64,000 bases of DNA from an uncultured Actinomycetes bacterium (lineage in GTDB: Bacteria; Actinomycetota; Coriobacteriia; Coriobacteriales; Atopobiaceae): assembly GCA_900313905.1 (NCBI GenBank), contig OMTG01000080.1, positions 1 through 64,000 of the forward strand. Direction: 5' to 3'. A program made the translations under genes and the position numbers. Below, piece after piece: positions 45,387 through 50,761 of this stretch. Every line of letters starts with the position of its first letter. The stretch's first letter is position 1. The notes below the pieces were generated by a model, which did not search any database, was not told the DNA's origin, and saw only the letters and a list, made by a program, of their open reading frames with translations.

Positions 45387-46310
45387 TCATCGCTCCTCTT
45401 GGGCAAGTATCCTGTCAGCCGCTTCGTTCGTGTCCATGGCATCGAGATCGAGCCAGATGACCCGTCCTTCGCGCTTGAACCAGGAGATCTGCCGTTTCGC
45501 ATAGCGGCGCGTCCGCATCTTGATCTGATCGATGGCCTCATCCATGGTGCAGCTGCCCTGGAGCGCCGCCACGATCTCCTTGTAGCCAATGGCCTGCATG
45601 GCGGTGAGCGTCTTAGCCAAGCCCTGGTCCATGAGGGAGCGCACCTCCTCGACAAGGCCCTCTGCCACCATCTGGTCCACCCGCTCCGATATACGCGCAT
45701 AGAGGCGCTCACGCGACATTCGGATCCCGTAGATGGAGGCTTCATACCAAGGTGCCGTATGGCGGAGCCCGGCATGCTGCTTGGCGTAGCTCTTCCCCTC
45801 ATCCAGAAGCTCGAGCGCACGTATGACACGGCGCACATTGTTCGGATGGATCAGCTCGGCGCTCTCAGGATCGCGGCTGCGCAGCAGCTCGAAGACAGCA
45901 TCTGCACCCTCCGCCTCTGCCATCTCCTCGTAACGCTTCCTCGCCGGTGAAGATGTGTCCCCTTTCGGGAACCTCATGTCGTCGATCACCGCATCGAGGT
46001 AGAGCCCGGTTCCTCCGCAGAGTATCGGGAGCTTCCCCTCTGACTGGAGGCGGTCGATGCAGTCCCGTGCATCGGTCTGGAAGAGCTGCACCGAGTAGCT
46101 CTCTCCGACATCGGCCACATCGACCATCTCAAGCGGACACCTGCGTTCGCTCACGGGCGTCTTGGCCGTGCCAATGTCCATGCCACGATATACCTGCATG
46201 GCATCGATGGAGACGACAGAGCTGCCGAGACGGCATGCCACCTCATCTGCAAGCGCGCTCTTGCCCGATGCCGTCGGGCCGACGATGCAGAGGACCCTGT
46301 CTCCCCTCAC
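45387..46310 (-). CDS. miaA: tRNA dimethylallyltransferase MiaA
   Basis: A 307-residue enzyme that adds dimethylallyl to A37 of tRNAs reading UNN codons. The P-loop is GPTASGKSAL (11-20), followed by SIDAMQVYRGMDIGTAK, the DxxQ-type catalytic region, and RYAKRQISWFKRE near the end for tRNA binding. Its ATG overlaps the miaB stop (ATGA). MiaB, encoded just upstream, performs the next step on the same base, so the pair forms a pathway. Confidence 0.96.
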   Translation of the reverse strand: MRGDRVLCIVGPTASGKSALADEVACRLGSSVVSIDAMQVYRGMDIGTAKTPVSERRCPLEMVDVADVGESYSVQLFQTDARDCIDRLQSEGKLPILCGGTGLYLDAVIDDMRFPKGDTSSPARKRYEEMAEAEGADAVFELLRSRDPESAELIHPNNVRRVIRALELLDEGKSYAKQHAGLRHTAPWYEASIYGIRMSRERLYARISERVDQMVAEGLVEEVRSLMDQGLAKTLTAMQAIGYKEIVAALQGSCTMDEAIDQIKMRTRRYAKRQISWFKREGRVIWLDLDAMDTNEAADRILAQEER

Positions 46311-47674
46311 CGGGGGTCGCCTTCGAGCGACCCTGCCAGATACCAGGATTTCGTCTCATCGATCCGGATGTCGGCAAGCTTTCCGACAAAGTCCTCAGGT
46401 GCGGCACCATCTGGCAGCGGGAAATGGACGGTCTGGTTCTTGCGGCTGTGTCCTACCATCACCTTGTCGTTGCGCTTCGAGACCCCCTCGACGAGGACCT
46501 CGGAGAGCGTCCCCATATCGCGTGCGTTCGACGCATGGGAGAGATCGGTCACGAGCTCGGCAAGCCGGTCGAACCGCTCCTGTATCACCTCATGGGGCGT
46601 TGGATCCTCGATCTTGGCGGCGGGGGTGCCAGGACGCTTCGAATAGATGAAGGTGAAGGCGGAATCGAAGGCCACCTCACGCACCAGCGAGAGCGTGTCC
46701 TCGAAGTCCTCTGCGGTCTCGCCAGGGAACCCGACGATTATGTCGGTCGAAAGCGCAAGATCCGGCATCGCGGAGCGGAGACGCCCAGCAAGGTCGATAT
46801 ACTGCTCGCGGGTGTAGCGGCGGTTCATGGCCTTCAGTATGCGTGTCGACCCGCTCTGGACCGCAAGATGCATATGGGGCATCACGTTCGGCGTCTCCGC
46901 CATGGCGGCGATCACCTCATCCGAAAGATCCTTCGGATTGGATGAGGTGAAGCGGATGCGGTCGACACCAGTCTTGCCGACCTCGCGCAGAAGCTCTGCG
47001 AAGCGCGGCTTTCCGTAGATGTTCCGTCCGTAGGAGTTCACGTTCTGGCCCAAGAGCGTTATCTCGCGCACGCCGTCAGCAACGAGGCCCTCGCACTCGA
47101 TGAGGATGCTCTCCATGGTGCGGGAGCGCTCCCTGCCGCGGACATAGGGCACGATGCAGTAGGTGCAGAAGTTGTCGCATCCTGTCATGATCGGCACCCA
47201 GGCATGGAAGCGCTCAGCGCGCCTGCTGGGCAGGTCGGTCGAGAAATGCTCCGTATCCTCTTCGGTATCCACGAGGACCTTGTGCTTCTTCTCGGCCATC
47301 GCTTCGACAAGAAGCTCGGGCAGCGCTGCCAAGGCACCGGTGCCGAAGACCACATCGACACAGGGGATGTTCTTCTTGAGGTCAGCGCCAGAGCGCTGCG
47401 CGACACAGCCGCCTACGCAGACGATGCGCTTGCCTGAAGGGGGTGTCGGAGCGCTTGCAGCGCCTGATGCCACGCCGTAGAGGCGGGTGTCCGCGCCTTC
47501 GCGCACGCTGCATGTCATGAATACGACGATGTCTGCCTCGTCGATGGTCTCCACCTCGAGGCAGCCGCAGGAATCAAGCAGGCCTGCCACCCGTTCTGCG
47601 TCGTGGAAATTCATCTGGCAGCCGAACGTCTTCACGTGGTAGGTCTTGCCGGCGAGCTTGGGGTACTGCTGCAT
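46307..47674 (-). CDS. miaB: tRNA-2-methylthio-N6-dimethylallyladenosine synthase MiaB
   Basis: A 455-residue radical SAM methylthiotransferase. The N-terminal UPF0004 domain (TYHVKTFGCQMNFHDAER) carries three Cys for the second cluster. The radical SAM motif is CDNFCTYCIVPYVRGRERSR (about 167), and a TRAM domain ends the protein. It adds CH3S to i6A37 made by MiaA. One base separates it from spoVS upstream. RimO, a relative, is also in this window. Confidence 0.96.
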   Translation of the reverse strand: MQQYPKLAGKTYHVKTFGCQMNFHDAERVAGLLDSCGCLEVETIDEADIVVFMTCSVREGADTRLYGVASGAASAPTPPSGKRIVCVGGCVAQRSGADLKKNIPCVDVVFGTGALAALPELLVEAMAEKKHKVLVDTEEDTEHFSTDLPSRRAERFHAWVPIMTGCDNFCTYCIVPYVRGRERSRTMESILIECEGLVADGVREITLLGQNVNSYGRNIYGKPRFAELLREVGKTGVDRIRFTSSNPKDLSDEVIAAMAETPNVMPHMHLAVQSGSTRILKAMNRRYTREQYIDLAGRLRSAMPDLALSTDIIVGFPGETAEDFEDTLSLVREVAFDSAFTFIYSKRPGTPAAKIEDPTPHEVIQERFDRLAELVTDLSHASNARDMGTLSEVLVEGVSKRNDKVMVGHSRKNQTVHFPLPDGAAPEDFVGKLADIRIDETKSWYLAGSLEGDPR

Positions 47675-47675
47675 G

Positions 47676-47993
47676 CTATGAAACCATCCTGGAGTCAGTG
47701 GGTGAAGAGGAGCTGAGCGACTGCGGCGTCAGCTTGTGGACATAGATCGCGATGCGGATGGCGGTTCTGCTCTCTCCGCCAATCTCGATATCGGAGAAGG
47801 TCGGCGCACAGGAGATATCGACACCTGTCGGGATCAGGAAACCTCGGGCGATAGCCACCGCCTTGATGGCCTGGTTCACCGCTCCAGCGCCGACGCACTG
47901 GAGATTCACCGGCACCCCATCCTTCACCATGCCGGCAATGGCACCCGCAACCGATGCGGGCGACGATTTGCTTGATACTTTGAGGAAGTCCAT
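47676..47993 (-). CDS. spoVS: Stage V sporulation protein S (SpoVS)
   Basis: A 105-residue small Alba-like protein. MDFLKVSSKSSPASVAGAIA, VNLQCVGAGAVNQAIKAVAI and GVDISCAPTFSDIEI are the near-invariant SpoVS blocks. In Bacillus it affects sporulation and septation; many non-sporulating bacteria also have it. The C-terminal 15 residues (QSLSSSSPTDSRMVS) are an extension. ATG 47993 follows AGGAGCAGG; it is 100 bp downstream of the GHKL ATPase and 1 bp upstream of miaB. Confidence 0.95.
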   Translation of the reverse strand: MDFLKVSSKSSPASVAGAIAGMVKDGVPVNLQCVGAGAVNQAIKAVAIARGFLIPTGVDISCAPTFSDIEIGGESRTAIRIAIYVHKLTPQSLSSSSPTDSRMVS

Positions 47994-48093
47994 ACCTGCT
48001 CCTGGCACATCTTCTATCTTGTGTCGTATCTTACAACGACCTAAAGCATCTGGTCTAGCACATATGCCATGTGACCATCTTACGCTTTCGCGC

Positions 48094-49188
48094 TCAGTCC
48101 TCTTCCATGAAATCGAAGCTGACCTGCACTTTTCCCGACGATACCCGCACTTCGGGCCTGCCTGTGGGCACCAAGTAGTAGCGCTCGGCCAGCTGCTGGA
48201 AATCCTTCGCGAGCACTTCCTGGAACTGCTCGATATCCTCGTCGGCAATCTTCAGGCCCCGGGAATCCTTCGCAAGATCGACCTTGTGCCGTGCCTGCGC
48301 GCCAGCTGCCTTCTGCTTGGCGCCGCAGCACCAGGCATAGGCGCCTTGGGCAGGCTTGATCTCGCCCGCAAGGATGCGGTGGGCAGTCCGCTCCGATATC
48401 ACCAGGCCAAGCTTTCCGGCAATCTCTGCAAGCTCCTGCGCATCTGCAGCAAGCCTCAGCTGCTGCAGGAGCGAAAGGTCGGAGAGCGCTGTCGTCAGGA
48501 GCTTCTCCCGGACCTCACGGGGAATGCGGACGTGCCGGCGAGCCGCCGCTATGACTTCAGCAGCAGAACCGACATAGACTTCGCAATCCCCTTCGTCCTC
48601 GAGCGCAAACTCGCAGCAGGTACGGCAGATGTTGTGGGGGCCACGCTCGATGAGAGGCTTTCCGGCATCGTCTGTGCCCATCTCAGGCCACGATGACTGG
48701 TCTGCCTTCTCCTGGATCGTCTCGGTATCGAAGACTGCCTGGATCGCTGTGCCCTTGCCGGGAGCAGATGCCATGACCTGGGCTGATTGGGCATTCTGCC
48801 TGATCGAGAAGAGCGCCATGCCCCTTCCGTGGACACCCCAGGCATCCATATGCATGGAGTCGAGCTTTGAGGTCACACGTGCATCGAATATGCGCTCCCA
48901 CATAGCCTCAGGAATGCCCGATCCATCGTCGATGGCCGTCAGTGTGCGCAGGGAGTCTGTCTTCGTCGTAGCCATCAGAATCGTATGCGCCCCTGCATCG
49001 CGGGCGTTGCGCAGGAGCTCGATCGCTGCATCCTCGACCGAACGGATATCATGCTTCGCCTGGCGGCGTTCGGCTTCGTCCACCCGAAGACGGACGAAGC
49101 CTCCGCCAAAGCTTTCCTCGACGCGCAGCTTCCCTGCATGCCCCGTCAGGGCGACGAAATCTGCAAGGCTTCCTGCGTCCTGGACCAT
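48094..49188 (-). CDS. MutL-like GHKL ATPase with a unique C-terminal region
   Basis: A 364-residue protein. Residues 45-155 form a GHKL ATP-binding domain: N-box IELLRNARDAGAH (57-68, E57 and N61), G1 DDGSGIPEAM (87-96), and a TSK loop (106-108) followed by GVHGRGMALFSIR (118-130). The TSK plus GRGMAL-S-I combination is closer to MutL/Hsp90-type than to sensor kinases. Residues 160-364 match nothing I know and include a cysteine-rich patch (ICRTCCEF, C201) and a helical end. No MutL endonuclease or dimer domain is seen, and no mutS is in the window. It starts 1 bp after the rny stop, so it is firmly coupled to RNase Y. Confidence 0.85.
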   Translation of the reverse strand: MVQDAGSLADFVALTGHAGKLRVEESFGGGFVRLRVDEAERRQAKHDIRSVEDAAIELLRNARDAGAHTILMATTKTDSLRTLTAIDDGSGIPEAMWERIFDARVTSKLDSMHMDAWGVHGRGMALFSIRQNAQSAQVMASAPGKGTAIQAVFDTETIQEKADQSSWPEMGTDDAGKPLIERGPHNICRTCCEFALEDEGDCEVYVGSAAEVIAAARRHVRIPREVREKLLTTALSDLSLLQQLRLAADAQELAEIAGKLGLVISERTAHRILAGEIKPAQGAYAWCCGAKQKAAGAQARHKVDLAKDSRGLKIADEDIEQFQEVLAKDFQQLAERYYLVPTGRPEVRVSSGKVQVSFDFMEED

Positions 49189-49189
49189 G

Positions 49190-50761
49190 CTACTTCGCCG
49201 TATCGACCGCGCGGGACTCGCGGATCACGACGACGCGGACCTGGCCGGGATACTCCATCTCGTCCTCGATCTGCTTCGCGATATCGTGCGCGAGCACGAC
49301 AGCCTCGGAGTCGGAGATCTTCTCCGGCTCGACCATGACGTGAAGCTCGCGGCCCGCCTGCATGGCGTAGGTGCGCTCGACGCCCTCGTGTGCGTTGGCG
49401 ATCTCCTCGAGCTTCTCGAGGCGCTTGATGTAGTTCTCGGCAGACTCGCGGCGTGCGCCCGGGCGGGCGGCCGAGATGGCATCAGCTGCCTGCACCAGGA
49501 CATCGAGGACCGTATCCGGCTCGACGTCGGCATGGTGCGCCTCGATAGCGTGGACGATGTCGGCCTTCTCGCCGTAGCGGCGGGCGAGGTCGGCGCCGAT
49601 CACGGCATGCGGCCCCTCGACCTCGTGGTCGATGGCCTTGCCGATATCATGCAGAAGTCCTGCGCGCTTTGCGGGCGCCTCGTCCATGCCAAGCTCCGAT
49701 GCCATGATGCCGCAGAGCGTGGCGACCTGGATGGAATGCTGGAGCACATTCTGCCCATAGGAGGTGCGGTAGCGCAGGGCTCCGAGGGTCTTCACGAGCT
49801 CGGGATGCAGATCGTGGATGCCCATATCAAAGGCAGCCTGCTCGCCTGCCTCGCGCACGCGCTCGTTCACGAGCGTCTCTGCCTTCTTGTACATGTCCTC
49901 GATACGCGCTGGATGGATGCGTCCGTCGGCAATGAGGTTCTCGAGGGTGACGCGGGCCGTCTCGCGGCGCACCGGATCGAAGCTGGAGAGCACGACCGTC
50001 TCAGGCGTATCGTCGATCACGAGGGAGACGCCAGTGACCTGCTCGAAGGTGCGGATGTTGCGGCCTTCGCGGCCGATGATGCGGCCCTTCAGATCGTCGG
50101 AGGGGATATGGACAGAGGTGACCGTGATCTCGCCTGCCTGATCTGCTGCGCAGCGCTGGATGGCGGTCGAGACGATCTCGCGGGCAGTCTTGTCTGCCTG
50201 TGCCCGGACGCGCTGTTCGGACTCGCGCAGGATCTGTGCTTCCTCATGCACGCTCTGCTTGCGCACACGTGCGATCAGCTCGTCGTGGGCCTCTTCCGTA
50301 TTGAGTCCAGCGATGCGCTCGAGCTCGGCAGTCTTCTGTGCTTCCATCTTGTCGAGGTCGTTCTTGCGGCGGTCAAGCTGGCCCTGGAGGCTCTGGAGCT
50401 GATGCTCCCGGCGATCGAGCGAATCATTGCGCTTGTCGAGGGACTCCTCGCGCTGCACAAGACGGTTCTCGAGGGTGTGGATCTCGCTCTTGCGCTGTTT
50501 GTCCTCATTCTCGGAGGCCTGGCGCATCTCGAGGATCTGCTCCTTGGCCTTGAGGATCTGCGCCTGCTGCTCGGTCTCTGCCTGGCGCCTGGCATCTGCC
50601 GTGATCTGCTCTGCCTGTGCACGCGCTTCATCGATCTGCGACTTGGCTTCGTCGACCTGGCGCTGCGCCTCCTGCACTTTCGTATTGTTCTTCGACGAGA
50701 AGATGAGGAAGCAGGCAACTGCTCCTATCGCCACGCCGAGAACAACCAGTACGATTTCCAT
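49190..50761 (-). CDS. rny: Ribonuclease Y
   Basis: A 523-residue membrane-tethered endoribonuclease that starts mRNA decay. One N-terminal helix (VLVVLGVAIGAVACFLIFSS), a long coiled coil (about 25-190, full of Q, E, R, K), a KH domain (about 210-270, IIGREGRNIRTFEQVTG) and an HD domain with HSIQVATLCGIM and LLHDIGKAID (about 370) occur in the normal order. GAGGAG precedes the start. It is the first gene of the rny-GHKL-spoVS-miaB-miaA-hflX unit and has a clear promoter upstream. Confidence 0.97.
   Translation of the reverse strand: MEIVLVVLGVAIGAVACFLIFSSKNNTKVQEAQRQVDEAKSQIDEARAQAEQITADARRQAETEQQAQILKAKEQILEMRQASENEDKQRKSEIHTLENRLVQREESLDKRNDSLDRREHQLQSLQGQLDRRKNDLDKMEAQKTAELERIAGLNTEEAHDELIARVRKQSVHEEAQILRESEQRVRAQADKTAREIVSTAIQRCAADQAGEITVTSVHIPSDDLKGRIIGREGRNIRTFEQVTGVSLVIDDTPETVVLSSFDPVRRETARVTLENLIADGRIHPARIEDMYKKAETLVNERVREAGEQAAFDMGIHDLHPELVKTLGALRYRTSYGQNVLQHSIQVATLCGIMASELGMDEAPAKRAGLLHDIGKAIDHEVEGPHAVIGADLARRYGEKADIVHAIEAHHADVEPDTVLDVLVQAADAISAARPGARRESAENYIKRLEKLEEIANAHEGVERTYAMQAGRELHVMVEPEKISDSEAVVLAHDIAKQIEDEMEYPGQVRVVVIRESRAVDTAK

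Follow-up and report, generated by a model that had tools for sequence, protein, structure and literature searches.

In the Coriobacteriia and at one fixed place across several deep actinobacterial lineages, the gene directly behind rny encodes an ATPase with intact motifs, with MutL as its nearest relative in sequence and with a conserved C-terminal half that has no known match. We tentatively propose that this GHL-type (MutL/MORC/Hsp90-like) ATPase, with its family-specific C-terminal half, is a dimer switch that is driven by ATP and acts on RNase Y, an enzyme that initiates mRNA decay. The combination of a MutL-like motor domain, another half without known match and a place right behind rny hints at a regulator of RNA turnover that has so far gone unrecognised. 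The family is known in annotation only as "ATP-binding protein", the label given to a member in a Collinsella record, and we found no published description of it in the open-licence literature. The Coriobacteriia include common human gut genera, e.g. Collinsella and Olsenella. We know of no GHL ATPase tied to bacterial mRNA decay so far; if acting on RNase Y, the protein would be the first one, as far as known, and would help to account for the control of RNase Y in bacteria without RicA and RicF.

In the window, i.e. the whole stretch of 64,000 nucleotides that was analysed, the ORF proved real and exactly as the first-pass annotation had delimited it; it starts with an ATG one base past the rny stop. 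The gene is under purifying selection (dN 0.24 and dS 1.36 against the closest relative, L001). It lies among the following genes:

48094..49188, minus strand: RNase Y-linked GHKL ATPase gene, 364 amino acids (ORF, Pfam, related loci)
49190..50761, minus strand: rny, RNase Y (TIGR03319, 702 bits)
47676..47993, minus strand: spoVS (PF04232, 118 bits)
46307..47674, minus strand: miaB, 1 base past the spoVS stop (ORF, related loci)

The order recA-recX-rny-ATPase-spoVS-miaB-miaA-hflX, of which the part from rny onwards had been described before, was found in the window and in nearly all of 80 related loci, the exceptions being cut by contig ends or having a recX too diverged for a match. Deep lineages typically show recA-recX-rny-ATPase-spoVS-PHP hydrolase-miaB, and four loci of lineage f33 were seen by BLAST to have recA-rny-ATPase-miaB without spoVS. 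Synteny by itself cannot point to RNase Y, because recA-recX and miaB-miaA-hflX are about as syntenic as rny in these loci. The tightest genetic bond of the ATPase is that to rny, given the distance of 1 base in the window, overlapping profile matches in 16 genomes and a near-complete dependence on the presence of RNase Y. According to the gene-neighbour survey this linkage is conserved phylum-wide: of the 92 genomes for which both genes were listed, 91 have the ATPase gene directly 3' of rny on one contig and in the same orientation, and in the remaining one the pair is divided over two contigs. The two profile matches are separated by -5 to 547 bases; in 16 genomes of family f26 (e.g. L142) they overlap by 5 bases, which suggests translational coupling.

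Searches of genomes covered the Actinobacteriota. The ATPase was matched in 147 of 149 sampled Coriobacteriia genomes, almost always as a single copy, and in all 124 of good quality (at least 90% complete, at most 5% contaminated). Among 296 genomes drawn across the phylum, 118 were positive at E<1e-20. Presence is lineage-bound: f26, f33, f36, f39 and f42 have the gene almost throughout, and other families are without it. All positive genomes of this draw also had a RNase Y match, except for one 79%-complete assembly, and many Actinobacteriota with RNase Y lack the ATPase. We inspected 18 loci of such RNase Y-positive, ATPase-negative genomes and found the flanking genes kept and no relative of the ATPase; what comes after rny there is miaB, spoVS, a PHP gene or some other gene. 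The trees built for the ATPase and for RNase Y agree in 16 well-supported splits against three conflicting pairs, and the correlation of pairwise distances is 0.87, which argues for vertical inheritance and not for mobility. A mobile or viral gene was dismissed, as relatives were absent from viral contigs and the single match in a plasmid collection is a 900-kb Collinsella record with the same recA-rny-miaB block. A defence gene was likewise ruled out, there being no PADLOC match.

The N-terminal half carries the ATP-binding domain. Pfam reports HATPase_c_3 (1e-7) and HATPase_c (2.5e-7) over residues 47-164, both above the gathering scores. The following elements could be assigned:

49048..49128, minus strand: N-terminal segment, residues 21-47, with strongly conserved EAERRQAKHD (low model confidence)
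48724..49050, minus strand: GHKL (Bergerat-fold) ATPase domain, residues 47-155 (Pfam, AF2, Foldseek)
48997..49020, minus strand: N-box E57-L-L-R-N61-A-R-D64, invariant in alignments A2 and A4, with E57 aligned with the MutL catalytic Glu
48910..48930, minus strand: G1 box D87-D-G-S-G-I-P93 (family alignment)
48862..48879, minus strand: RVTSKL (104-109), MutL-like TSK loop (alignment including MutL)
48811..48837, minus strand: G2 box G118-V-H-G-R-G-M-A-L126 (alignment including MutL)

Among 30 deeply diverged members, E57, N61, D64, D87, G91, T106, G118, G121 and G123 are invariant, and G89 is kept in 97%, so that N-box, G1 and G2 are intact throughout or nearly so. E57 is present in 100% of the sequences of A2 and A4; one f33 sequence has Gln instead. 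In the profile alignment, E57 falls on the catalytic glutamate and N61 on the asparagine of MutL. The TSK loop (ARVTSKL, 103-109) and the GRGMAL motif (HGRGMAL, 120-126), which the first-pass annotation had noticed in the single sequence, are strongly conserved in the family. A Glu in the N-box (ExxxN), here E57, is the GHL form of the GHKL motif. The motif set is that of the GHL ATPases, and not of kinases; GHL ATPases dimerise on ATP and hydrolyse it (GHKL superfamily knowledge; PMC2292703).

With the deep-family profile of 30 members, the PDB search gave Aquifex MutL (8.4e-10) as the best match, followed by MLH1 (4e-6) and B. subtilis MutL (2e-5); histidine kinases reached 1.7e-4 at best. 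Foldseek with the ATPase model (AF2, pLDDT 79) likewise listed MutL first, then histidine kinases and topoisomerase VI-B. The domain is therefore closer to MutL/MLH1 than to histidine kinases, as had been supposed, sharing with the MutL/MLH1 N-terminal domain the Bergerat fold, the ExxxN..DA N-box, D.G.G, the TSK loop and RG.AL.SI. It is not MutL, however: the protein reaches 32.2 bits with the MutL equivalog model (32.3 in the search of its own genome), far below the cut-off of 180, its C-terminal half is unrelated, it occupies a different locus, and MutL was found in 0 of 99 Coriobacteriia genomes. The idea of a displaced MutL had to be abandoned on these grounds.

The protein could also be a sensor-kinase-like or anti-sigma-type protein kinase stripped of its other domains, since all members are matched by HATPase_c, the ATP-binding fold of the CA domain of sensor histidine kinases, with scores similar to those for HATPase_c_3, and a RstB kinase model matches members with values up to 8e-10. 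Yet only HATPase models exceeded the Pfam cut-offs, with no HisKA/DHp or receiver domain found; the invariant N-box Glu is of the GHL type, and kinases rank below MutL in the PDB profile search, so that we consider a kinase highly improbable. MORC and paraMORC GHKL-S5 ATPases (PMC2292703) are similar in being GHKL ATPases of prokaryotes that stand alone and bear a C-terminal extension specific to their family, and MORC2 and MORC4 are among the weak PDB profile matches of the family. They differ in their restriction-modification neighbours and patchy spread, as opposed to the vertical inheritance and fixed locus seen here. The GhXhhpXXRhl motif of the MORC S5 domain is absent from the ATPase and was detected by a regular expression in one of 30 family members, so that membership in MORC was rejected.

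The proximity to MutL, the lack of MutL in the class, and recA and recX just upstream in nearly every locus raise the question if the ATPase is a MutL-like, DNA-acting recombination or repair clamp that partly replaces the missing MutL and whose true association is with recA-recX, not rny. We regard this as unlikely, because the protein lacks a MutL-type C-terminal half or any other recognised domain, because 295 bases separate recX from rny in the window as against the single base between rny and the ATPase gene, and because RNase Y-positive genomes devoid of the ATPase still have recA upstream of rny wherever the locus extends that far.

The C-terminal half is the part in which the family stands apart, and comprises:

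48097..48723, minus strand: C-terminal region, residues 156-364, of no recognised family or fold, conserved family-wide
48685..48711, minus strand: EKADQSSWP (160-168), just past the ATPase domain, a candidate gamma-phosphate or transducer loop; E160, K/R161, Q164 and S165 kept down to f33
48352..48408, minus strand: GLVISERTAHRILAGEIKP (261-279), most conserved C-terminal motif; S265, R267 and R271 invariant, even in f33

These approximately 205 residues are kept throughout the family and always fused to the GHKL ATPase. A profile of the C-terminal half picked up 116 of the 296 phylum genomes, none of which lacks the ATPase, and the loci coincide with those of the ATPase except for fragments at contig ends; the profile also detects most f33 sequences without help of the ATPase domain. 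The conserved motifs are E(R/K).DQS..P (160-168), GP.N (183-186), Y.GS (205-208) and LGL.IS.R...RI..GEI (about 260-277). Modelled alone, residues 152-364 gave a structure of fair confidence (pLDDT 83.5) that is based on close relatives only. No match emerged from PDB folds (best E 0.41), PDB sequences (best E 0.1) or viral models, and Pfam yielded nothing beyond weak Nif11 or HTH matches, in agreement with the earlier statement that this part is neither the MutL dimerisation/endonuclease domain nor another known one. To the eye, the LGL.IS.R...RI..GEI motif resembles a helix-turn-helix and may be taken as a candidate for one. HTH_31 was matched weakly in eight of 69 members (best 0.0025) and there was no significant fold match; neither an HTH nor a Nif11 domain was accepted on such weak matches. 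As to an S5-type transducer, the model shows beta-beta-alpha-beta-alpha at 169-219, and the C-terminal model alone has no S5 fold match.

The Cys-rich patch that had attracted attention in this half lost its standing as a feature, as it is limited to the window's sequence and its near kin: C188, C287 and C288 are essentially confined to the window's sequence; C191, C192 and C202 are frequent in near relatives (76-91%) but not in the deep alignment (13-27%). With Cys residues so poorly conserved, there is no conserved site, and a zinc or redox site was ruled out. The first-pass annotation thus held in part, namely for the MutL-like ATPase, the C-terminus without known domain and the linkage to rny, and failed for the displaced MutL and the Cys patch. 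It had named three results that would speak against it, i.e. a kinase-like profile, a known C-terminal domain and lack of linkage to rny in relatives; all three were looked for and none was observed.

It had also left the choice of partner between RNase Y and SpoVS, a member of the Alba superfamily (PMC11621453) and a probable nucleic-acid binder, whose complexes the ATPase might remodel in a joint regulator. The gene spoVS comes next after the ATPase gene in 80 of 83 genomes with both, the other three being split between contigs. The linkage is looser than that to rny, though: of the 118 ATPase-positive genomes, 35 show no SpoVS, among them the entire f33 and f42 lineages, and about ten genomes have SpoVS but not the ATPase. 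The spacer between the two genes is longer (61-752 bases by match coordinates) and often contains a TAGAAT/TAAGAT-like -10 sequence (window 47994-48093; L002, L003, L006, L017 and L036), so that spoVS-miaB may be transcribed from a promoter of its own. A promoter and terminator scan returned no informative site, and no Rfam element was found near the gene junctions. Since f33 and f42 keep rny-ATPase without spoVS, and spoVS occurs near rny in other lineages that lack the ATPase, SpoVS is the less likely of the two partners, and we judge a regulator built on it to be very unlikely.

A translation or tRNA factor, whose true partners would be miaB, miaA or hflX and whose co-transcription with rny would be a chance of operon structure, appears distinctly unlikely as well. 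These three genes are found downstream in most loci of the Coriobacteriia, miaB also where spoVS is missing; on the other hand, a PHP gene and others intervene between the ATPase gene and miaB in several lineages, and miaB keeps its position where the ATPase is absent.

We thus propose an ATP-gated partner of RNase Y, because rny is the tightest bond of the ATPase, and because RicA and RicF are absent, YmdB is nearly so and RicT is kept. PMC10470536 describes B. subtilis RNase Y as directed by, and dependent on, its partners RicT, RicA and RicF. RicA/RicF (Com_YlbF) were detected in 0 of 99 Coriobacteriia genomes and YmdB (TIGR00282) in one of the 99 (G087:C110:1847-2599). PSP1/RicT is present in the window's own genome (G000:C2:13225-13479, L150), where it is kept without its two known partners. 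In Bacillus, ymdB occupies the slot between rny and spoVS, which is the slot of the ATPase gene here; the two proteins are unrelated. The proteins of the RicT-RicA-RicF (Y) complex are unrelated to the ATPase, too, and the likeness would lie in the role as RNase Y partner.

ATP would close the lid and dimerise the N-terminal domains, and the C-terminal region, with its conserved LGL.IS.R...RI..GEI motif and a predicted long helix and hairpin, would contact RNase Y or its RNA. This contact could alter the site, the timing or the choice of transcripts in RNase Y cleavage, and hydrolysis with E57 as base would reset the switch. In deep Actinobacteriota the ATPase would then play a role akin to that of the Y complex for B. 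subtilis RNase Y. Whether we deal with a new GHL ATPase family of undescribed C-terminal fold that regulates or remodels RNase Y in an energy-dependent way, and hence with an ATP-gated mRNA-decay switch of deep Actinobacteriota without known counterpart in Firmicutes or E. coli, is more doubtful, if conceivable.

We also looked for residues that set RNase Y of ATPase-positive genomes apart, and found nothing convincing: D207 (94% against 22% in ATPase-positive and ATPase-negative Actinobacteriota) and A431 (91% against 28%), both also found in f33, were the sole differing positions, and the signal is weak and confounded by phylogeny. As to the wider locus, many deep lineages (L128-L133, L138, L143) carry a gene for a PHP-family hydrolase (DLHIHSTASDGT...) between spoVS, or the ATPase gene, and miaB. 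It is absent from this position in Coriobacteriia of the window's family, and some ATPase-negative genomes have it after rny (L159, L165).
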